Assembly (NCBI RefSeq): GCF_018476525.1
Contig: NZ_JAHCST010000058.1
Span: 1-57,626, forward strand
Direction: 5' to 3'
Source: Acrocarpospora catenulata
GTDB lineage: Bacteria; Actinomycetota; Actinomycetes; Streptosporangiales; Streptosporangiaceae
Length of the DNA: 57,626 bases
Shown here piece by piece: positions 7,026 through 25,551 of the stretch; position 1 is the first letter of the stretch; every line of letters starts with the position of its first letter. A program made the position numbers and the translations under genes. The notes under the pieces are model-generated. The model worked only from the letters and a program-made list of their open reading frames with translations, was not told the origin of the DNA and ran no database searches.

Positions 7026-7076
7026 ATGTATCGAACTCTGCCCCTCGCCCAGATTGATGGGTAGAGTTTGATACAT
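7026..7076. promoter_or_regulatory. Inverted-repeat operator with leaderless promoter of abiEi copy A
   Basis: ATGTATCGAACTCT (7026-7039) and AGAGTTTGATACAT (7063-7076) form 14-bp inverted half-sites with one mismatch, 23 bp apart. The right half-site covers the -10 box TAGAGT (7062-7067) and the ATG at 7075, 7 nt downstream. AbiEi antitoxins are known to repress their own promoter through inverted repeats, so this is the probable operator. The same pair is kept at the second copy (28385-28434). Confidence 0.7.
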
Positions 7077-7698
7077 GAGGGCGGGGGAAGCTCGGGCGTT
7101 CGAGGCACGGTTGGTGGCCCTGCCGCCCACCTTTACCTCTGCTCAAGCACGTCGTGCTGGCATCCCGTCCCGCGACCTTGCTCTTCTGGTATCGGAAGGG
7201 AAGCTTGACGAGCTGTCGCGAGGGGTCTATCGCCAAGCGAGCGCTCCGGAGACCGCGCATCTTGATCTGCTTGCTGTGTGTACGCGTGTGCCGCGCGCGA
7301 TCGTCTGCGGAGAATCCGCTCTTGCTCTTCACGAACTCATCGACGACATACCTTCGGCTGTGCACATCGCTGTGGCACGCGGCAGTCATCGCCCATTGTT
7401 TCCCTATCCACCTGTTGTGGTGTCCCAGTACGCCGCCGACACGTTCGACCTCGGCCGCGAGGACTTCCCACTCGCCCCCGGAGAGAACGTTCCCGTCTAC
7501 AACGCGCCCCGGAGCGTGGTCGACGCGATGCGACATCGCCATGTGATCGGAAAGGACTTGGCGCTCTCGGCGCTCGGCCGGTACCTGCGCACTCGCGGTC
7601 GTACCGCGGTCAATGAACTTCAGGACATAGCCGAGGAACTGAAGGCAATGCCGGCGATCCGCCCAGCGGTCGAGGCGGTGTTGGCGCTCGGCGCATGA
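7075..7698 (+). CDS. AbiEi-type antitoxin / winged-helix regulator, copy A
   Basis: The 207-aa product belongs to the type IV TA antitoxin AbiEi group. It has an N-terminal winged helix (FTSAQARRAGIPSRDLALLVSEGKLDELSRGVYRQ, about 18-52) and a C-terminal region from 65 (AVCTRVPRAIVCGESALALHEL) that neutralises the AbiEii nucleotidyltransferase. It looks full length, but its last codons derive from the toxin gene: after VLA it reads LGA and stops inside the ATGA of a toxin remnant. The start is leaderless within the operator. Residues up to HVIGKDLA are almost identical to the truncated copy at 28 kb. It may still repress both operators. Confidence 0.85.
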   Translation: MRAGEARAFEARLVALPPTFTSAQARRAGIPSRDLALLVSEGKLDELSRGVYRQASAPETAHLDLLAVCTRVPRAIVCGESALALHELIDDIPSAVHIAVARGSHRPLFPYPPVVVSQYAADTFDLGREDFPLAPGENVPVYNAPRSVVDAMRHRHVIGKDLALSALGRYLRTRGRTAVNELQDIAEELKAMPAIRPAVEAVLALGA

Positions 7699-7862: not shown

Positions 7863-8071
7863 TCCGGGCGTTGCCTTCGATTGGCTTACTCCGCCGGAAG
7901 TCCTGATTTACTGGTACATATGAGTTACGGCCATGTTTAGTGGGGCTCACCAGCAGGCGGTATCCCACTAGGCTGGCGTTTGTGCTCTTTCTGGGTGTTT
8001 TGAGGTGAATGAAACCGACCTCGGGGGTCGGTTTCCCGGCCTACCAAAATGCACTCAGAAAGGTACATCAG
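7863..8071. other. Intergenic stretch after the AbiE remnant
   Basis: No gene is recognised. A short frame from a GTG at about 7847 ends with AFDWLTPPEVLIYWYI and a stop at about 7922; it may be another remnant. A hairpin lies at 8011-8035. Confidence 0.4.
8011..8035 (+). terminator. Perfect 10-bp hairpin
   Basis: GAAACCGACC and GGTCGGTTTC pair perfectly over a 5-nt loop. It could terminate transcripts of the decayed AbiE locus or act as a leader element for the small ORF that follows. No U-run is present. Confidence 0.5.
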
Positions 8072-8278
8072 GTGGATACACCTTCCAAAGGCGACATGCT
8101 GTCGCAGCAATGGGATGGTGGTACGGAACTGCCCGGAGAGCATCCGGAATCGGACGTATCGCTGTCCGGAAGACGTAGTCACCGTCGCCGGTGGATGCGC
8201 CGGATGGTGCGGGTCAGTGCTGGAACCTCGGTACAAATCCGACTTTATTACACCATTGGCGACAAATGGCCCGAGTAG
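8072..8278 (+). CDS. Possible small basic protein, 68 aa
   Basis: A GTG at 8072 has AAAGG eight bases upstream and opens a 68-codon frame. The centre is very basic (SGRRSHRRRWMRRM, about 33-46) and the end is VQIRLYYTIGDKWPE. The TAG stop sits inside the left arm of a perfect palindrome, so gene and terminator are fused. An in-frame ATG at 8009 would add 21 residues. No family is recognised. The position between two hairpins and before the large regulator gene supports a real transcription unit, but coding is unproven. Confidence 0.35.
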   Translation: MDTPSKGDMLSQQWDGGTELPGEHPESDVSLSGRRSHRRRWMRRMVRVSAGTSVQIRLYYTIGDKWPE

Positions 8279-8292
8279 CTACTCGGGCCATT
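8265..8292 (+). terminator. 28-bp perfect palindrome, probable terminator
   Basis: Two 14-nt arms, AATGGCCCGAGTAG and its exact complement, meet without a loop. The TAG of the preceding small ORF is in the left arm. RNA would form a strong hairpin. As DNA it is also a perfect protein-binding dyad, so an operator for the downstream regulator is an alternative. Confidence 0.6.
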
Positions 8293-8481
8293 AGCCGGCG
8301 GTATCGCTGACCGGCGGGGGGTTCCGGAAATCAGGTCGCAAACTGGAGCCGGGACCCTTCGCCCACAGCATCGCAAGGTACATCCGGAGTGTGTACATCC
8401 CCCGAACGTACAGAGTCATCTAATTACATACCTGGGGACGCGCGCTACGGCCAGATCTACATAGCTAGATGGTGTTGATCC
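8293..8481. promoter_or_regulatory. Leader/promoter region of the 950-aa regulator gene
   Basis: No gene is seen. It holds repeated GTACATCC elements (about 8378 and 8395; GTACATCAG also occurs at 8063) and an AT-richer patch with TAATTACATAC near 8425. These are candidate operator or -10 elements, not proven ones. No clear ribosome site precedes the ATG at 8482. Confidence 0.35.
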
Positions 8482-11334
8482 ATGAGCAGAGCTGTGCGTC
8501 TTACCGGCGTGACTCTCGCGGTCCTTGACGTCCTCTCCGAAGGGGAGGCGGTGTACGGCTTCCAGATCGCAGGTACGATCAAGCGGCCCACCGGCACGGT
8601 CTACCCCTTGCTCTCCCGGCTGGAAAGGCTGGGCTGGCTGGACGCCCGCTGGGAGTCCGAGCAACCGGCGGAGGCACGTGGCCGTGGCCCACGCCGCCGC
8701 TACTACCGCCTGAACGCCCTCGGCTGGGAACAGTCCATCAAGGCTCTGCGCGAGCGCGACCAGGTACGCGAGGCGGCATCGGGCGGGGGCCGCCCCACTC
8801 CGGGAACGGCGATCACCCGCGACCAGGTCCTCATCGATTTCGCCGCGATGCTGAGAAGCCTGCGAGACTCGGCCGCGCAACCGTCCCTCTGGGACATCGC
8901 CGCCCAGGCCGCGTGCAGTGTCTCCGCCGTCGCCGCCGCCTTCTCCGGGCACGCCCTGCCATCCGCGGCGCTGGTCACCACGATCGCCATGGCCTGTGGC
9001 GCCGACCCCGGCGAGTGGCGGCGCCGCCGGTCGTTCGCCGAGCAGAGCATTCGCCACGGGATCTGGATTTCCGACTCCTATGAGGAGTTCCATCCTCTGG
9101 GCGCCGACTGGGTCCGGGAGAGCCTGCGCCGGAGAGAGCTGGACCCGGAGGACGAGGCCGACCTGGTCCAGGATGTGCTGGCCGACGCCTTCGAGCAGTG
9201 GCATGACCTGTCCGTCGTCTCCGATCTGCGGGGGTGGCTGCTGGCCCACACCGCGCGCCTGGCCAGGCGGAGACCTCAGGACCCCCCTTTCCTCATGGGC
9301 CTGACTCCGCCGGCCGGCTCGGTGCCGGCCGCTCCTGATGTGGCGGACACGATCGTGGAGGAGGCCCAGGCGCACGAGCTGTTACGCAGGCTCGATCGAG
9401 GCTCGGCCAAGGTCGTGTACCTGCGCAGCCTCGGGCACTCCGGTAAGGAGGTGGCGGAACTGCTCCGCGTCTCGCGGTGGACCGTGGAGGCCGCGATCAC
9501 CCGGGCCCGCAGAAACGTCGGCGTGACGCCGGTCCATCACGGCCGCCGGTACTTCATCCGCTACCTCGCCGCAATACGCAGGAGCGCGGGCAACCCCTCG
9601 GTACGCGCGATCGCAGAAAAGATCAGCTTCAGCCACGCGCACGTCGCGTCTGTGCTGTCCGGTGCGGAACTGCCGTCCTGGACTTTCACCGTGCGCCTGG
9701 TGCAGGCGCTGGAGGGCTCACCCGACCTGGCGTGGCAGCTGTGGCGCGAGGCGAAGCTGCCGCTCCTGCCTGTGCCCGAGGCCTGGATCGCCGAGAACTG
9801 GGTGAAGGAGGCCGCCCGGACGGCTGACGCGCTCGCCCTGTCCCGGCTTTTCCACCAGCTCAAGAAGGAGGGCTTCCACCAGCAGGCCAGTGAGGTCTGG
9901 CGCACCGCCGCCGAGTTGGGGAATCCGGTGGGGATGATCGGTTTCGCCGAGTCCTGTGAAAGGAACGGGGACATAGCGGAGGCGAAGTGGTGGCTGCGTC
10001 GAGCCCTCCAGCTGGGCGCGCCGACGGCCAGGCGGAAGCTGGTGGGCGTGCTCGAAAGGACCGGACAGCTGGACGATGCGATCAGGCTCGCCCGGCAGGA
10101 CACTGGCCCTGGTGCGGAGCACGAGTTGTCCCGGCTACTGGAGCGGGCCGGGCGTGTGGATGAAGCCCTCGAGCTGTGGCGGCGGGACACCAGCCCGGCC
10201 GGGCAATACCGGCTGGCCCAACTGCTGGAGCGGGCCGGGCGCCTGGATGAGGCCATCGAGGTGCGGCAGCGAGAGAGCCGAGTGGGCGGCCAGAAGGAGC
10301 TGGCGCAGCTGCTGGAGCGTGCCGGGCGCGTGGCCGAGGCCATCGACCTCTTACGGCAGGCGGCGCGCGACAACGTCACCGCCATGCGCGCCCTGTCGGA
10401 GCTGCTCGAACGTCATGGGCGCCTGGACGAGGCAAGGCAGATCTGGCGGGACGCCGCCGCCGACGGCAACAGCTGGGCGACTCGGCAGATGGCCACTCAG
10501 CTGATGCGTACCCGGATGGCCAGGATGCGGTGGGATCTCGTGAAGGCCGTGAAGGCCGGCGACATCAAGCGCGTCCGCGACACGACCGCGCTGTTCCGGA
10601 CCTGGGACAGTTTGGTGGACGCCTTCCAGATCCTGTGCGACCTCGCGCGTACCGGCTCCGTGGTGGCCGTCGAGGAGCTCGCTCACCTGCTCGGCCAGCA
10701 GGACCGAAAAACGATCAAGGACTGGGTGCTGACGGTGGGACGGGACTCGTTCCCCTTACTGGACGAATATCTGGATGAATATCTGGACGATTCCGTACTG
10801 GAGGTCCACACCGAGACCCTGCTCAGCAGAGCCGCCGACAACGGCCATTGGGGCGCGCAGATCGCACTGGCCGAGTTGCATAAGAACGACCGGAGACTGG
10901 TTGAGTCATCCCGCACGGTACAGAAGCGGCCCGATCTCCCGGGTGTGGCGGCGGTCGAGGCGCTGGCCCGCCAGGATAAGGAGAGCGAGCTACGCGCCTG
11001 GGCGGAAGCCGGGTACTACCCGGCCCAGTGGCGGCTCGCCGAACGACTGATCGATCGGGGAGAGCATGACGGGGCGATCGCCCTACTCCGCGAACCCGTC
11101 CGCAACGGGAATTCGGACGCCGCCTGGCGTCTGGCCCAACTGCTGGCCACCCTGGGCCGAGTCGACGAGCTGCGCACTCTCGCCGATGACGGCAGCGACT
11201 ACGCCGGATGGCTGCTGAGCGGCCAGCTGGCCAGGTCCGGCGACTGGGCGGGCCTGCGGGCGCTGGCCGAGTCGAGCAAGCCGTACGCCGCCCACGCTGC
11301 AGAACGCCTCGCCGCGCATCGGCGCGACCATTGA
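8482..11334 (+). CDS. 950-aa multidomain regulator: PadR-like, HTH, sigma-70-like, HTH, TPR/Sel1 repeats
   Basis: Residues 1-95 form a PadR-type winged helix (VLSEGEAVYGFQIA, TGTVYPLLSRLERLGWL). Residues about 110-190 are an actinobacterial XRE-like HTH (FAAMLRSLRDSA, PSLWDIA, FSGHALPS, CGADPGEW). Residues about 200-345 resemble an ECF sigma factor: a region 2-like helix (EADLVQDVLADAFEQW) and a region 4 HTH (AKVVYLRSLGHSGKEVAELLRVSRWTVEAAITRARR). A second XRE-like HTH follows (about 360-430, PSVRAIAEKISF, LSGAELPSW). The rest, to 950, is TPR/Sel1-like repeats with recurring LLERAGRVDEAIELWR units. No NTPase, membrane segment or effector enzyme is visible. I infer a cytoplasmic DNA-binding, protein-interacting regulator. 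No named family with this whole order is known to me. Confidence 0.8.
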   Translation: MSRAVRLTGVTLAVLDVLSEGEAVYGFQIAGTIKRPTGTVYPLLSRLERLGWLDARWESEQPAEARGRGPRRRYYRLNALGWEQSIKALRERDQVREAASGGGRPTPGTAITRDQVLIDFAAMLRSLRDSAAQPSLWDIAAQAACSVSAVAAAFSGHALPSAALVTTIAMACGADPGEWRRRRSFAEQSIRHGIWISDSYEEFHPLGADWVRESLRRRELDPEDEADLVQDVLADAFEQWHDLSVVSDLRGWLLAHTARLARRRPQDPPFLMGLTPPAGSVPAAPDVADTIVEEAQAHELLRRLDRGSAKVVYLRSLGHSGKEVAELLRVSRWTVEAAITRARRNVGVTPVHHGRRYFIRYLAAIRRSAGNPSVRAIAEKISFSHAHVASVLSGAELPSWTFTVRLVQALEGSPDLAWQLWREAKLPLLPVPEAWIAENWVKEAARTADALALSRLFHQLKKEGFHQQASEVWRTAAELGNPVGMIGFAESCERNGDIAEAKWWLRRALQLGAPTARRKLVGVLERTGQLDDAIRLARQDTGPGAEHELSRLLERAGRVDEALELWRRDTSPAGQYRLAQLLERAGRLDEAIEVRQRESRVGGQKELAQLLERAGRVAEAIDLLRQAARDNVTAMRALSELLERHGRLDEARQIWRDAAADGNSWATRQMATQLMRTRMARMRWDLVKAVKAGDIKRVRDTTALFRTWDSLVDAFQILCDLARTGSVVAVEELAHLLGQQDRKTIKDWVLTVGRDSFPLLDEYLDEYLDDSVLEVHTETLLSRAADNGHWGAQIALAELHKNDRRLVESSRTVQKRPDLPGVAAVEALARQDKESELRAWAEAGYYPAQWRLAERLIDRGEHDGAIALLREPVRNGNSDAAWRLAQLLATLGRVDELRTLADDGSDYAGWLLSGQLARSGDWAGLRALAESSKPYAAHAAERLAAHRRDH

Positions 11335-11374: not shown

Positions 11375-11790
11375 TCAGGAACGTGGCGGATAGAGGCGTT
11401 CCAGTCGGTCGGTGTGGACGGCGTAGATAAAGGGGCCGGAGGTATCTGTTGCGGTGAAGATGGCCTTTTGGTTGGTTATGAAGCGTTCGGCGGAGGCGGC
11501 GGAGGTCAGGTCACCGGGGTGATGACGAAGCAGCGGGCCTGGTGTTCGATGACGGCGTCGATCTCCGCCTGTCGGTAGCGGATGCGTTTGTCCTTCATCA
11601 GGACGGCCCAGCCGAGTTTGGCGCTGTCTTCGATCCAGCGGGTGTCCTCGACGGTCTCGTCGTGGGGGACGCCGTAGTGTTCGGCCAGCGTGATCAGATC
11701 CCACCCGGCGTCGCGAAGCATTTTGGGGATGGCGACTCGGCCGAGGCTGCGGTCGATGAAGAACTTACGCGGCGGCTCGGGTGGCGACAC
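11375..11790 (-). pseudogene. PIN-like (VapC45/Mut7-C type) toxin, split by a one-base deletion
   Basis: A GTG at 11790 (inside the end of the antitoxin gene) opens KFFIDRSLGRVAIPKMLRDAGWD, with PIN-like acidic residue Asp, then DTRWIEDSAKLGWAVLMKDKRIRYR, a typical metal-site region. The frame stops at 11506 after CFVITPVT. One frame over, the sequence continues as GDLTSAASAERF, then GPFIYAVH and LERLYPPRS to 11375, which is the usual C-terminus of these roughly 138-aa toxins. Restoring one C in the ACCCCGG run (11514-11520) gives ITPGDLTSA and the complete protein. It is either a knocked-out toxin, a sequencing error or a -1 frameshift site. Confidence 0.75.
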
Positions 11791-12466
11791 GTAGAACGTC
11801 CTCGATCTCGTTTCGGGTGAGTCCGTACTCCTCTGCCACGATGTCGACCGGTTCACCCGCTTGGAAGAGGTCGATCACGTCTTCGAGCTTGGCGCCGCCG
11901 CGGGCGAACCGGGGACGGCCGAAGGCATGGTTGGCATCTACCGTGATCTTGGCGACACGGTATTGAGGGAGGGCGATCACTTGGGCGTATCCGTCGGGGG
12001 CGAAGTCCACGCGCCGGAGGTAGTTCTCCACGACCTCGGCGAAGACTCGCTGGTTGTTGCGGACGACCACCAACTCGCGGGCCGAGTCGTCGCCGACATG
12101 TTCGGCGTAGTCGTAGAGGACCTCGGCGCCGTCGGTGAAGAGCCGGCGGCTGGCCAGGGCGTGTTCCAGGCCGAGTTCCCGTTGAAGCGCGTCGATCGCC
12201 GGGCGGATGCGCTGGAGCGGCACGCCCGCCTGCCGGAACGCGGCTAGGGCGTATCCCTCGGCCAAGCCGATGAACGGCACGGAGGCCTCGTGTGGGCGCT
12301 CTGCCCGGGCGGCGGTGATGACTGGTTTGGCGTGAAAGGTACGACCGTCGCGCTGGCGGCGCTCATAGCCGAAGGCCCATGTGGTGAAGGTGGAGGCGGG
12401 TATCGCGAGATAGCCGGCCGCTTCGGCGATGCCGTACAGCGGCGTGGTGAACCGATCGATGGCCAT
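11765..12466 (-). CDS. DUF433-domain antitoxin with MerR-like N-terminus
   Basis: A 233-aa protein. The N-terminus (PLYGIAEAAGYLAIPASTFTTWA, 9-31) is a MerR/HTH-like DNA-binding segment. The C-terminus (AVIALPQYRVAKI-like segment, RFARGGAKLEDVIDLFQAGEPVDIVAEEYGLTRNEIEDVLR) is the DUF433 domain found in antitoxins paired with PIN-like toxins. A strong AGGAGG lies 5 nt before the ATG. The toxin gene starts 26 nt before the antitoxin stop, so the two are translationally coupled. The antitoxin frame is intact although its toxin is broken. Confidence 0.8.
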   Translation of the reverse strand: MAIDRFTTPLYGIAEAAGYLAIPASTFTTWAFGYERRQRDGRTFHAKPVITAARAERPHEASVPFIGLAEGYALAAFRQAGVPLQRIRPAIDALQRELGLEHALASRRLFTDGAEVLYDYAEHVGDDSARELVVVRNNQRVFAEVVENYLRRVDFAPDGYAQVIALPQYRVAKITVDANHAFGRPRFARGGAKLEDVIDLFQAGEPVDIVAEEYGLTRNEIEDVLRVATRAAA

Positions 12467-21841: not shown

Positions 21842-22495
21842 ATGAGTGAGATCATCCTGATGTCCGACCCGCGGGTCGCGGCCGTGCCGGTCGAGGACTG
21901 CGGGGAACCCCTGGTCGACCTGCGGGACGTCCCGGGCCTGCGGATCGACCATCGGCTGGCCGACCCGGCCGACGCGTACGTCCGGCTCAGGGAGGGCGTC
22001 GCCGCCCGCCTGGACCGGGCCGGCGGCCGGCTCCCCGCTGGCCTGCGGTTACTGGTGGTGGAGGGCTACCGGCCGCTGTCCCTGCAGACCCACTACTTCG
22101 AGGAGTACGCCGCCGAGCTGCGCGCCGCCAACCCCGGCTGGTCGGCCGAGCACCTGTACCGGCAGGCCAGCAGGTCGCTGGCGCCGCCCGCGATCGGGCC
22201 GCACGTCAGCGGGGGCGCGGTCGACCTCACCCTCTGCACCGAGGAGGGGGAGGAGCTCCCGATGGGCACCGAGGTGAACGCCAGCCCCGAGGAGAGCGAC
22301 GACGCCTGCTACACCGAGGCCCCCGGCCTTTCCCCCGAGGTCCGGTCCAACCGGGCCATCCTGGGCGAGGTGCTGGCGGGCGAGGGCCTGGTGAACTATC
22401 CGACCGAATGGTGGCACTGGTCGTACGGCGACCGGTACTGGGCGACGCTGACGGGGGCGTCCGCGGCCCGCTACCGGCCGCTGGAGTGGCCCTGA
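21842..22495 (+). CDS. VanX-like D-Ala-D-Ala dipeptidase (peptidase M15D)
   Basis: A 217-aa zinc dipeptidase. It has LLVVEGYRPLSLQTHYFEEY near 75 (arginine of the active site), the zinc motif SGGAVDLTL near 121 (in VanX SRHSRGSAVDLTL; the first His here lies in GPHVSGGAVD), and EWWHWSYGDRYWA near 193 with catalytic Glu and third zinc His. No signal peptide is seen, so it acts in the cytoplasm on D-Ala-D-Ala, in wall recycling or glycopeptide tolerance. No vanH or vanA partner is in the window, so the resistance role is only a possibility. The 3' end overlaps the convergent regulator by 25 nt. Confidence 0.87.
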   Translation: MSEIILMSDPRVAAVPVEDCGEPLVDLRDVPGLRIDHRLADPADAYVRLREGVAARLDRAGGRLPAGLRLLVVEGYRPLSLQTHYFEEYAAELRAANPGWSAEHLYRQASRSLAPPAIGPHVSGGAVDLTLCTEEGEELPMGTEVNASPEESDDACYTEAPGLSPEVRSNRAILGEVLAGEGLVNYPTEWWHWSYGDRYWATLTGASAARYRPLEWP

Positions 22496-25400
22496 TCCTC
22501 CTGGGCTTCTGCCAGTAGTTCGGTGTACTCGCGGGCTCCGTAGCGGCGGAAGACGGCGAGCGCGGCGTCCCGGGTGGCGGACGCCGTGGCCGGGTCGCCC
22601 TGCCGGTCCCGCAGCCGGGCCACGTCCCGGAGCGTACGGGCCCGGAACAGCGGCAGGTCGAGTTCCTCCCAGATCCGGATGGACCTCTCGAACGCCCGAT
22701 CCGCCCCGTCCAGATCGCCCTCGGCCAGCCGCAGCTCGCCCAGGGTGCGCAGGGTGAGCGCGGCCCCGAACCGGTCCGCCGACCGGCGGGAGACCGCCAG
22801 CGCCTCGGTCAGCTGCTCGGCCAGCCCATCGCGGCGCCCCAGCCGGATCCTGGTCTTGGCCAGCGCCTGCACGCAGAACGCGGCCAGCAGTTCGTCGCCC
22901 ACCTCGCGGAAGACGGCCAGCGCCTGGGCGGCCAGTTCCTCGGCCAGGTCCAGGTCCCCGCTCGCCCGGTGCAGCAGGGACAGGCTGCGCAGGGTGAGCG
23001 CCTCGCCCCGGCGGCTGCCCGCGCTCCGGTAGGCGGCCAGCGACTCCGCCAGGTCCTCGGCCGCGCCGGGGAAGTCGCCGACCTCCAGCCGTACCGAGCC
23101 GCGCAACCGGGTCACCTGGCCGATGGCCGCCTCGTCGCCCAGCGCCCGCGCGCTCTCCAGGGCCGCGTCCAGGTATGCCACCGCCTCGGCGAACCTGCCC
23201 TGCTCCCGGCAAGCCGCGCCGAGCGAGGCCAGCGCCGAGGTCTCGCCCGCTCCGTCGCCCACCTCGCGGAACACCTCCAGCGCCTGGACCAGGTGGGCGC
23301 GGGACTCGGCGAACAGGTCCTGGGCGAACTTGAGGTCGCCCAGCTCGGTCAGCAGCCGGGCCACCCCGTGCTTGTTCCCGGCCCGGCGGGCGGCGGCCAG
23401 CGCGGCCTCGTGCGTACGGGTCCACGCCTCCAGGCGGTTGTGCACCACGAACACCGAGCTGGACAGCGCGGAGGCGAGCTCGCCCGCCAGCTCGTCCAGG
23501 TCCATCGCGGCGGCCACCTCGACCCCCGTCACCAGCGCGTCCTGCTCGGCCTCGAACCAGGCCCTGGGGTCGGCCAGCACCTCCGCCACCCGCGCGGCGG
23601 AGACGGGCACCGCGTGCGGGTACGCCTCCCGGACCGCCACCCCGCCCGACGGGGCGGCCTGCGCGATCTCCCGGAGCAGCCAGAGCCACTGGCCGATCGC
23701 CCGCTCCACGGCGGCGGCCCGCTCGGCGGGGGTGTCCTCCGCCTCGGCCCGCTCCCTGGCGAAGATCCGGACCAGGTCGTGCAGCCGGTACCTGATCGCG
23801 CCCCCGCTGGGCACGGTGTGCTCCACCAGTTGGGCGTCGACCAGGCCCTCCAGCAGGGTCTCGGCCGCCTCAGGGGAGGTGCCGAGCAGCGCGGCCACGG
23901 ACTCGGCGCCGAAGCTGGGCAGGCCGAGCAGGCCGAGCAGGCGCAGCCCGCGCCGGGCGTCCCCGGGCAGCGCCCGGTAGCTGAGCTCGATCCCGGCCCG
24001 CACCTCCTGGTCCCCGACGGCCAGCTCGTCCAGCCGGCGCAGCTCGTTGGTGAGCCGCTCGGCCAGCAGGTCCAGCGGCCAGGCCCGGCGGGAGGTGAGC
24101 TTGGCCCCGGCGATCCTGATCGCCAGCGGCAGGTGGCCGCAGAGCGCCACGATGCGCCGGGCCGCCCCCGGCTCCCGGCCCACCCGTTCCGTGCCCACGA
24201 TCCTGGTCAGCAGCTCGACGCTCTCCGCCTCGCTGAGCACGGCCAGCTCGGTGAAGACCGCCCCCGCGAGACCGGCCAGCCGGTTCCGCGAGGTGATCAG
24301 CACGGCCGGGCCAGGGGTGCCGGGCAGCAGCGGCCGTACCTGGCGCTCGTCGGCGGCATCGTCCAGCAGGATCAGCACCCGCCGCCCGGCCAGCAGCGAC
24401 CGGTAGCGGGCGGCCCGCTCCTCCCGGCCGATGGGCAGGTTGACCGGGTCGGCGCCGAGCTCGCGGAGCAGCCGGGCGAGCACCTCGTCAGGGGAGGCGG
24501 GCGCGTCGCTCATGCCGCGCAGCTCGACGTGGATCTGACCGTCGGGGAACTCCCGGGCCAACCGGTGCCCGACGTGTCCGGCCAGCGCGGACTTGCCGCT
24601 GCCGCCCTGGCCGGAGACCACCGCCACCGGCACCGAGGAACTGCCCGCGCGCGGCACCAGCAGCTCGCCCAGCAGCTCCACCTCGTGGCCGCGCCCGGTG
24701 AAGTCGGGCGGCTCCGGCGGCAGCTGGGCCAGGCTGGGCAGGGTCTCCGGGACGTTTCTCGGGGCGGGTTTCGCGGCGGATCTGGGGGCGGGCGTGCCGG
24801 TCCAGCCCAGGGCCGCGTCATCGGCCCGCAGCACGGCCTCGTGGATGGCCCGCAGCTCCGGACCCGGCTCGATGCCGAGCTCGTCCACCAGCAGGTCCCG
24901 GCCGTGCCGGAACACGCCCAGCGCCTCGGCCTGCATGCCCAGCCGGTAGAGGGCGACCATCAGCTGGCCGCGCAGCCGCTCCCTGGTGGGATGCTCGCCG
25001 ACCAGTGAGCGCAGCTCGGCCACGATCTCGGCCTGGGCGTTCCTGGCCAGGTCGGCGGTGACCCGCTCCTCGACGGCCGACAGGCGCAGCTCCGCCAGCC
25101 GGTCGGCCTCGGCCCGCAGCGCGTCGCCGAGCCCGCCCAGCGCGTCCCCCCGCCAGAGCCGGAGCGCGGCGGCGAAGGCGGCGCCGGCGCCCTCGTGGTC
25201 GCCGTCGGCCGCGCGGCGGCGGCCCTCGGCCACCAGGGTGCGGAACTCCTCGGCGTCCAGCTCGCCGGGCCGTACCCGGACCAGGTAGCCGGGCGCCCGG
25301 GTCTCGATCACCTCGCCCCGGCCCGCCGCGAGCAGTTCCTTGCGCAGCGCTGAAACGTACGTCTGGACCAGCGACTGGGCGCTGCCCGGGGGCGCGGACG

Positions 25401-25551
25401 GCCAGAGCAGGTCGATCAGCCGCTCCACCGAGATCACCCGGCCCGGCTCCAGCAACAACGCGGCCAGCAACGTTCGTGGTTTCGGGCCGCCCAGCTGTAG
25501 TTCCCGCGCCCCGTCCCGGACCTCGACCGGCCCGAGTATTCGAAACTCCAC
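22471..25551 (-). CDS. AfsR/SARP-family regulator with NB-ARC and TPR
   Basis: A 1026-aa cytoplasmic regulator. Residues 1-95 are an OmpR-type winged helix (MEFRILGPVEVRDGARELQLGGPKPRTLLAALLL begins at 1). Residues 96-245 are the bacterial transcriptional activation domain. A STAND ATPase starts near 285 with the P-loop SGQGGSGKSALA near 319 and Walker B ILLDDAADE near 397. TPR repeats run from about 700 to 1000. Such proteins sense an unknown signal, hydrolyse NTP and activate secondary-metabolite genes. The GTG at 25551 has GGGGAG upstream. No biosynthetic cluster lies beside it, so the target is unknown. Confidence 0.93.
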   Translation of the reverse strand: MEFRILGPVEVRDGARELQLGGPKPRTLLAALLLEPGRVISVERLIDLLWPSAPPGSAQSLVQTYVSALRKELLAAGRGEVIETRAPGYLVRVRPGELDAEEFRTLVAEGRRRAADGDHEGAGAAFAAALRLWRGDALGGLGDALRAEADRLAELRLSAVEERVTADLARNAQAEIVAELRSLVGEHPTRERLRGQLMVALYRLGMQAEALGVFRHGRDLLVDELGIEPGPELRAIHEAVLRADDAALGWTGTPAPRSAAKPAPRNVPETLPSLAQLPPEPPDFTGRGHEVELLGELLVPRAGSSSVPVAVVSGQGGSGKSALAGHVGHRLAREFPDGQIHVELRGMSDAPASPDEVLARLLRELGADPVNLPIGREERAARYRSLLAGRRVLILLDDAADERQVRPLLPGTPGPAVLITSRNRLAGLAGAVFTELAVLSEAESVELLTRIVGTERVGREPGAARRIVALCGHLPLAIRIAGAKLTSRRAWPLDLLAERLTNELRRLDELAVGDQEVRAGIELSYRALPGDARRGLRLLGLLGLPSFGAESVAALLGTSPEAAETLLEGLVDAQLVEHTVPSGGAIRYRLHDLVRIFARERAEAEDTPAERAAAVERAIGQWLWLLREIAQAAPSGGVAVREAYPHAVPVSAARVAEVLADPRAWFEAEQDALVTGVEVAAAMDLDELAGELASALSSSVFVVHNRLEAWTRTHEAALAAARRAGNKHGVARLLTELGDLKFAQDLFAESRAHLVQALEVFREVGDGAGETSALASLGAACREQGRFAEAVAYLDAALESARALGDEAAIGQVTRLRGSVRLEVGDFPGAAEDLAESLAAYRSAGSRRGEALTLRSLSLLHRASGDLDLAEELAAQALAVFREVGDELLAAFCVQALAKTRIRLGRRDGLAEQLTEALAVSRRSADRFGAALTLRTLGELRLAEGDLDGADRAFERSIRIWEELDLPLFRARTLRDVARLRDRQGDPATASATRDAALAVFRRYGAREYTELLAEAQEDQGHSSGR

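Follow-up and report, generated by a model that had tools for sequence, protein, structure and literature searches.

A PadR-XRE-sigma-TPR protein of Acrocarpospora catenulata with a co-inherited small gene and a candidate self-control site

Which regulatory role could a single protein play that joins a PadR-type head, two XRE-type helix-turn-helix (HTH) domains and a sigma factor-like core to a long arm of repeats? A gene for such a protein was found in the actinomycete Acrocarpospora catenulata, whose genus belongs to the Streptosporangiaceae (NCBI taxonomy), on contig NZ_JAHCST010000058.1, the 57,626 nt of which constitute the window analysed here. The open reading frame (ORF) is located exactly at positions 8482-11334 of the + strand, begins with ATG and is open up to its stop, encoding 950 aa. 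In a first-pass annotation it had been described as a regulator fusing PadR, two XRE-like HTHs, a sigma-70-like part and TPR repeats, and this description was borne out by Pfam, by homologues and by structural models. Based on the sequence comparisons the conserved unit is larger than one ORF, since a small upstream gene and box C, a candidate operator in front of the start codon, accompany all nine copies detected; it is made up of the two genes and this candidate self-control site. The small gene and box C, both located outside the ORF singled out previously, are stronger hints of a distinct system than the domain order.

The regulator starts with a PadR winged helix-turn-helix followed by a C-terminal helix (residues 9-100; 8506-8781, + strand as all its domains), which was recognised by Pfam, in the model and by Foldseek. 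Next in order are a first XRE-type HTH (XRE1, residues 112-192; 8815-9057), assigned from HTH_3 and HTH_31 matches in homologues and from the model, and the extracytoplasmic function (ECF)-like sigma regions 2 (residues 200-262; 9079-9267) and 4 (residues 287-346; 9340-9519), which were inferred from Sigma70_r2 and Sigma70_r4_2, respectively, from a profile match to SigH and from the model. The two sigma regions are joined by a linker and lack region 3 between them, which corresponds to the ECF layout according to profile, Pfam and model. A second XRE-type HTH (XRE2, residues 353-425; 9538-9756), homologous to the first and present in the model, precedes TPR-like helical repeats of about 500 aa in total (residues 437-950; 9790-11331) that are predicted by Pfam TPR models and by the full-length model, with a poorly predicted stretch at residues 767-817.

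For the window protein alone the Pfam match to PadR lies above the cut-off (residues 14-82, E 6.8e-9; 36 bits versus 27), as do several TPR models. Sigma70_r4_2 stays just below it (residues 296-344, E 1.7e-5; 24.8 bits, cut-off 25.7), and the matches to Sigma70_r2 (residues 209-263, E 0.018) and HTH_3 (residues 142-179, E 0.026) are below it as well. The NCBIfam model SigE-fam_strep aligns with residues 221-345 at E 2.5e-7, yet with 30.7 bits it falls far short of its cut-off of 141.55, and sigma70-ECF reaches 16.8 bits versus 42.9. The weak domain calls of the window copy become firmer because its homologues match the same models: in the N-terminal parts of the nine members (Pfam, E <= 1) PadR, Sigma70_r4_2 and HTH_3 were each detected in all nine, HTH_31 in eight and Sigma70_r2 in six. 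An hhalign comparison showed XRE1 and XRE2 to be homologues (probability 98.7, E 2.3e-16), so that the sigma part sits between two related XRE heads. Consequently the four HTH-type heads represent three families; the previous count of four DNA-binding modules holds, the view that all of them are of different families does not. The absence of a STAND-type NTPase, as noted earlier, was supported inasmuch as no P-loop NTPase (NB-ARC, NACHT, AAA) occurs in the listed Pfam matches (25 of 29) or in the 13 NCBIfam matches.

The full order PadR-XRE-sigma2-sigma4-XRE-TPR was detected within one frame in nine of the 341 genomes sampled from the host's family, spread over five genera, which makes the gene a rare one of soil actinomycetes. 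Three members belong to the genus of the window, two each to the genera g4 and g5 and one each to g6 and g33; those with species names include Acrocarpospora macrocephala and A. phusangensis of the window's genus and Nonomuraea thailandensis (g4). The nine copies are 800-950 aa long from the starts used and share 34-44% identity with the window copy. In the search with the sigma model 310 of the 341 family genomes gave a match at E <= 1e-9, for the most part ordinary ECF sigma factors; the weakest long-frame member scored E 2.3e-28, followed by another sigma fusion at 1.1e-18 and 1.6e-18 and by matches of 6.0e-16 or weaker. A contig scan returned nothing with a single protein as query and three members with an alignment. 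The class sample (394 genomes, N-terminal model, E <= 1e-25) yielded six matches, the window's own being the sole full-length one and the other five covering the PadR part only, approximately the first 100 positions, while the window's own copy was the sole match in the phylum sample (386 genomes, sigma model, E <= 1e-16). These genome searches score few first-look candidates per genome (4 for the class, 9 for the phylum, 10 for the sigma model in the family and 18 for the small gene), so that weak variants may escape them. A PadR-only match in a frame of 411 aa (L148) was rejected as a member, since by eye it contains neither an XRE nor a sigma part.

The occurrence of the same open frame in nine species of five genera also refutes the explanation that separate genes were joined by an assembly or sequencing error, to which we attach practically no weight, and a chance ORF was rejected on the same grounds. 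Literature searches, most subscription papers being outside their reach, revealed no described family with this order, in agreement with the first-pass annotation.

The second gene of the unit lies upstream of the regulator in all nine members. In the window it occupies 8072-8278 (+) and encodes 68 aa from GTG, or 89 aa if ATG at 8009 is the start; the nine products comprise 59-68 aa, and the gap to the regulator is 154-203 nt. In the copy of genome G130 a stop codon removes a few residues. The small protein has a polar N-terminus without an obvious export signal and a basic patch; some hydrophobic residues are found in its C-terminal part, which is net positive and includes a 17-residue stretch with a mean hydropathy of 0.5-2.3. 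It could not be assigned to any family, as there was no match in Pfam (two copies) and nothing firm in NCBIfam (nine copies). A model of the small gene recovered all nine members (E 2.5e-28 to 1.4e-20); among the other 332 family genomes 27 gave weak matches at E <= 0.01, the best of which (4.1e-5) lies within a 560-aa frame.

A 28-bp perfect palindrome spans the stop codon of the small gene (8265-8292, +) and is predicted to form a terminator-like hairpin (-35.2 kcal/mol, z -4.1). Hairpins with differing arm sequences are predicted at this stop codon in all nine loci, with z-scores of -1.7 to -6.7 against mononucleotide shuffles, three of them being weaker than -2.2. Since this feature is kept, the sequence suggests that the small gene and the regulator are under separate control with a terminator between them. 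The motif CTAGGCT is present before the small gene in the window (7968-7974, +). According to the alignment of the loci, inspected by eye, CTASSCT occurs at this place in eight of nine and resembles the -10 element of a housekeeping promoter.

The two genes could also be explained as a toxin-antitoxin-like or selfish module, in which the small basic protein would be toxic and the large protein would act as its repressor and neutraliser. Such a module would agree with the co-occurrence of the pair in nine of nine members, with its sporadic distribution (9/341) and with the net positive charge and the hydropathy of the C-terminal part described above. It would likewise agree with genome G004 of the window's genus, in which both genes appear to be lost: the small gene was not found there and a C-terminal remnant of the regulator alone remains beside corA at the syntenic place (L142; L009:1100-1780). 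Nevertheless, we regard this explanation as improbable. PADLOC gave no match, which also led us to reject a defence system, the Pfam (two copies) and NCBIfam (nine copies) searches revealed no known toxin family, and we know of no precedent for such a large sigma-bearing antitoxin. In G004 a gene for a DUF5946 protein adjoins the regulator remnant. No full-length copy of the regulator was detected in genome G001 in the genome searches.

In the control region all nine members carry box C (TCTAYATANNTAGATGG) 8-9 nt upstream of the regulator start codon, with no mismatch in seven and one in two; the window version (TCTACATAGCTAGATGG; 8456-8472, +) ends 9 nt before the start. It occurs once in the window and in none of 100 shuffles, and at up to one mismatch the 11 genomes searched contain a single further site (G073). 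At two mismatches 20 matches face 18 for the reversed-pattern control, so that only sites with zero or one mismatch are meaningful. The DNA around box C is unusually similar between genera, with a mean identity of 0.80 over 31 cross-genus pairs. In the N-terminal half of the regulator the first, second and third codon positions reach 0.58, 0.63 and 0.46, respectively, and the upstream values are 0.62 for the stretch -75 to -1 and just 0.50 for -160 to -76; these figures are not strictly like for like, as upstream stretches were aligned freely with gaps and codons by protein alignment. Two further elements were recognised. Box A, an imperfect inverted repeat (GGGGTTCCGG...CCGGGACCC; 8318-8357, unstranded), appears weakly conserved in the loci alignment as judged by eye. 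Box B (ATTACAYCGYGASGRCTGAACA) is present at the regulator gene in six of nine members with 0-1 mismatch and was not found within three mismatches in the window genome, G617 and G627; its genome search gave eight matches, two of them at three mismatches and away from the gene, versus one for the control. A regulon connected through box C or box B was considered and none was found in the genomes searched; the only target to which these candidate sites point is the regulator gene itself.

As to the middle of the protein, the claim that it holds both a region 2-like part and a region 4-type HTH gained support from several sides besides the Sigma70_r4_2 matches of all homologues. A profile of the sigma stretch (seven rows) retrieved Mycobacterium tuberculosis SigH of initiation complexes (5zx2_F, E 1.8e-9, positions 27-157 of 162), CnrH (E 1.6e-8) and SigL (E 2e-8), in a list that also contains an unrelated chain of designed-repeat type (8vd6_A, E 2.8e-7). 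For residues 1-445 AlphaFold predicts five folded units, namely PadR, XRE, sigma-2, sigma-4 and XRE (mean pLDDT 77.1, pTM 0.42), so that a sigma-like and a second HTH fold are both present in the model. Sigma-4 is predicted less well, with blocks of pLDDT 58-83 and a low-confidence stretch (residues 265-300) that extends into its first helix. The single-chain model also places a helix at residues 79-100 after the PadR winged helix. In the Foldseek comparison with the PDB, ECF sigma chains and PadR proteins make up the top 13 matches (probability 0.99-1.00); the PadR unit resembles 3hhh_B with a TM-score of 0.72 by target length, and the ECF matches have an rmsd of 14-25, which would be expected if sigma-2 and sigma-4 were arranged differently. 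At the level of single residues, D227 and an acidic residue (E or D) at 231 are kept in nine and Q230 in eight of the nine members, positions of region 2.2 that presumably contact core polymerase. The HTH pattern of sigma-4 is retained too (G318, A325 and V335 in nine, R338 and R343 in eight).

We tentatively favour the interpretation that the locus is a two-gene module. Its main protein might act as an ECF-like sigma factor that anchors itself on DNA, using box C to repress its own gene, and the activity of which is gated by the TPR arm and perhaps the small protein. This proposal is based on the order kept in nine of 341 genomes, the kept positions of sigma-2 and sigma-4, the SigH profile and fold matches, the fact that box C precedes the gene in all nine members and is unique, and the small gene, which accompanies all nine and has no convincing counterpart in the 332 other genomes. 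The PadR and/or XRE heads would hold the regulator on box C and repress its gene, so that it would act first on its own promoter. The sigma-2/sigma-4 pair would bind core polymerase and, once released or repositioned, direct transcription to start in nearby DNA. As the region reading the -10 element has drifted, promoters would be chosen largely by the attached heads. The TPR arm might keep the sigma part closed until a partner binds; the likeliest partner would be the small protein inherited with the regulator, either whole or as a fragment. The proposal is also supported by the control of ECF42 sigma factors through C-terminal TPR extensions, as stated in the ECF42 passages of PMC8999054.

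Several observations weigh against the favoured interpretation. The comparison set comprised 16 ECF proteins recovered from 19 loci, 14 of them similar in appearance, and relative to this set the region 2.3/2.4 pattern for melting and reading the -10 element is mostly lost; R250 is kept in nine and W252 in seven members, other positions being mostly changed, and R259 is invariant across the nine. As to the earlier proposal that the region 2 fold and the core-polymerase contacts be checked, the predicted fold and the presumed contact residues are retained. Mean pairwise identity is lower in sigma-2 and sigma-4 (0.41 and 0.38) than in PadR (0.59) and XRE1 (0.56), and similar to that of XRE2 (0.44) and the two TPR halves (0.43 and 0.35). 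None of the Foldseek matches reached E <= 0.001. The full-length model (pLDDT 75.9, pTM 0.32) contains the long helical-repeat arm, its low pTM meaning that the predicted packing of the domains is not reliable. Finally, by eye the spacing of candidate sigma-70 or ECF promoter elements before the regulator did not fit.

The lost pattern, the lower conservation of the sigma domains and the restriction of the conserved site to the regulator gene would all be expected if the sigma-like part were no longer sigma-active and served as one more DNA-binding block, in a repressor with several heads that grips the DNA upstream of its own gene while the TPR arm senses a releasing partner. This alternative is possible, albeit rather doubtful, and ranks close behind the sigma-factor reading. 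A plain DNA-binding block would not need D227, Q230 and the acidic residue 231, which are kept in eight to nine of nine members, nor does it readily explain why sigma-2 and sigma-4 with their ECF-like linker are kept in nine lineages. Taken by itself, the sequence pattern fits either a sigma factor that has handed promoter choice over to the attached heads or a sigma core that is becoming a plain DNA-binding block.

With respect to its history, the window copy clusters in the tree with two copies of the same genus (support 98/97) and has a long branch of 0.97 versus 0.25 and 0.24 for these two. Its neighbours corA and purD are approximately 80-84% identical between the window and the same-genus relatives. 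The most economical interpretation is that the gene descended vertically and changed rapidly. Apart from the small gene and general families (ABC-type matches), no neighbours common between genera were detected in the stretches compared. A phage origin was rejected as tblastn gave no match in phages. A plasmid origin was rejected as well: matches came from 19 plasmid records and covered at most 53% of the query; in 17 of these records the best place is found from residue 395 onwards, and the remaining two cover residues 5-64 and 312-663, respectively. By eye the latter (H10) contains an HTH, a P-loop-like motif and repeats, and no sigma part.

Parts of this architecture resemble known regulators. 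PadR-s1 repressors such as LmrR, ordinarily of about 110-130 aa, likewise have a winged helix followed by a long helix, which here form the N-terminal unit of a much longer chain (950 aa). SARP/AfsR-type and other STAND regulators are also large DNA-binding proteins with a TPR arm, and differ in their NTPase, which was not detected in the regulator. One SARP/AfsR-type regulator with BTAD, NB-ARC and TPR is encoded in the window at 22474-25551 (-). In RRNPP peptide-gated regulators an XRE-type HTH directly precedes the TPR arm and a small gene lies beside them, as do XRE2, the arm and the adjacent small gene here; the sigma and PadR parts are additional in our case and the small protein is devoid of an obvious export signal. 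The regulator could be a peptide-gated DNA-anchored sigma factor in which the PadR and XRE heads hold the operator, the sigma part recruits polymerase and binding of the small protein, or of its C-terminal end, to the TPR arm acts as the switch. We consider this more specific variant unlikely; if true, a single molecule would unite the roles of repressor, activator and sigma factor, and no separate anti-sigma factor would be required.

Closer in kind are certain ECF groups. In ECF42 (e.g. Sven_0747) sigma-2 and sigma-4 are followed by a TPR-rich C-terminal extension, as in the regulator; the extension is essential and regulation by a protein partner is predicted, according to the ECF42 passages of PMC8999054. 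There it measures about 200 residues compared with about 500 here, and these passages mention no N-terminal heads of the PadR or XRE type, of which the regulator has one and two, respectively. PadR repressor genes occur in the neighbourhood of ECF265, going by the description in the same source, so that the PadR-ECF association is alike in both cases, with separate genes there and one chain here. ECFs with N-terminal extensions share the extra domains before sigma-2; the passages on them in PMC8103513 name no PadR or XRE heads, report that the described ones were first found in Planctomycetes and state their mechanism as unknown. On the basis of these excerpts ECF42, ECF265 and the ECFs with N-terminal extensions are the nearest in kind to the regulator. 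In conflict systems ECF-like HTH domains likewise occur linked to TRADD-N and repeats, as mentioned in PMC8195603, the main text of which does not contain the term PadR.

Several other genes of the locus and its relatives deserve mention. Between the regulator and corA the window encodes a toxin-antitoxin-like pair of a PIN-like protein (11506-11856, -) and an HTH_66/DUF433 protein (11765-12466, -), and an AbiEi-type antitoxin-like protein (Pfam AbiEi_4) is encoded at 7075-7698 (+). Three related genomes carry two genes upstream of the regulator's place that are absent from the window version (L137:3084-7657, L138:9880-13778, L142:10713-14527); as tested for the L137 copies, one encodes an NYN-domain protein and the other a large protein that combines ECF sigma regions with a zf-HC2 zinc finger. 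Genomes G014 and G087 encode the other sigma fusion mentioned above, a 391-aa protein (L158:1465-2640 and L159:1465-2640, both -) with ECF sigma-2/sigma-4 at residues 227-378. Pfam at E <= 0.001 gives its sigma parts only, and the approximately 200 aa before them look by eye like a class III nucleotidyl cyclase.

The regulator provides a natural case in which sequence-specific heads flank a sigma core on both sides and are accompanied by one candidate operator and one candidate partner. It thereby bears on how N-terminal ECF extensions work, a question stated as open in PMC8103513. The two genes with their candidate self-control site may represent an as yet undescribed type of self-contained gene switch. 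If the sigma part does not work, the family would clearly illustrate how a sigma core can be turned into a simple DNA-binding block. If it works, promoter choice would be movable from sigma-2 to attached repressor heads, a new and usable design for self-contained switches.

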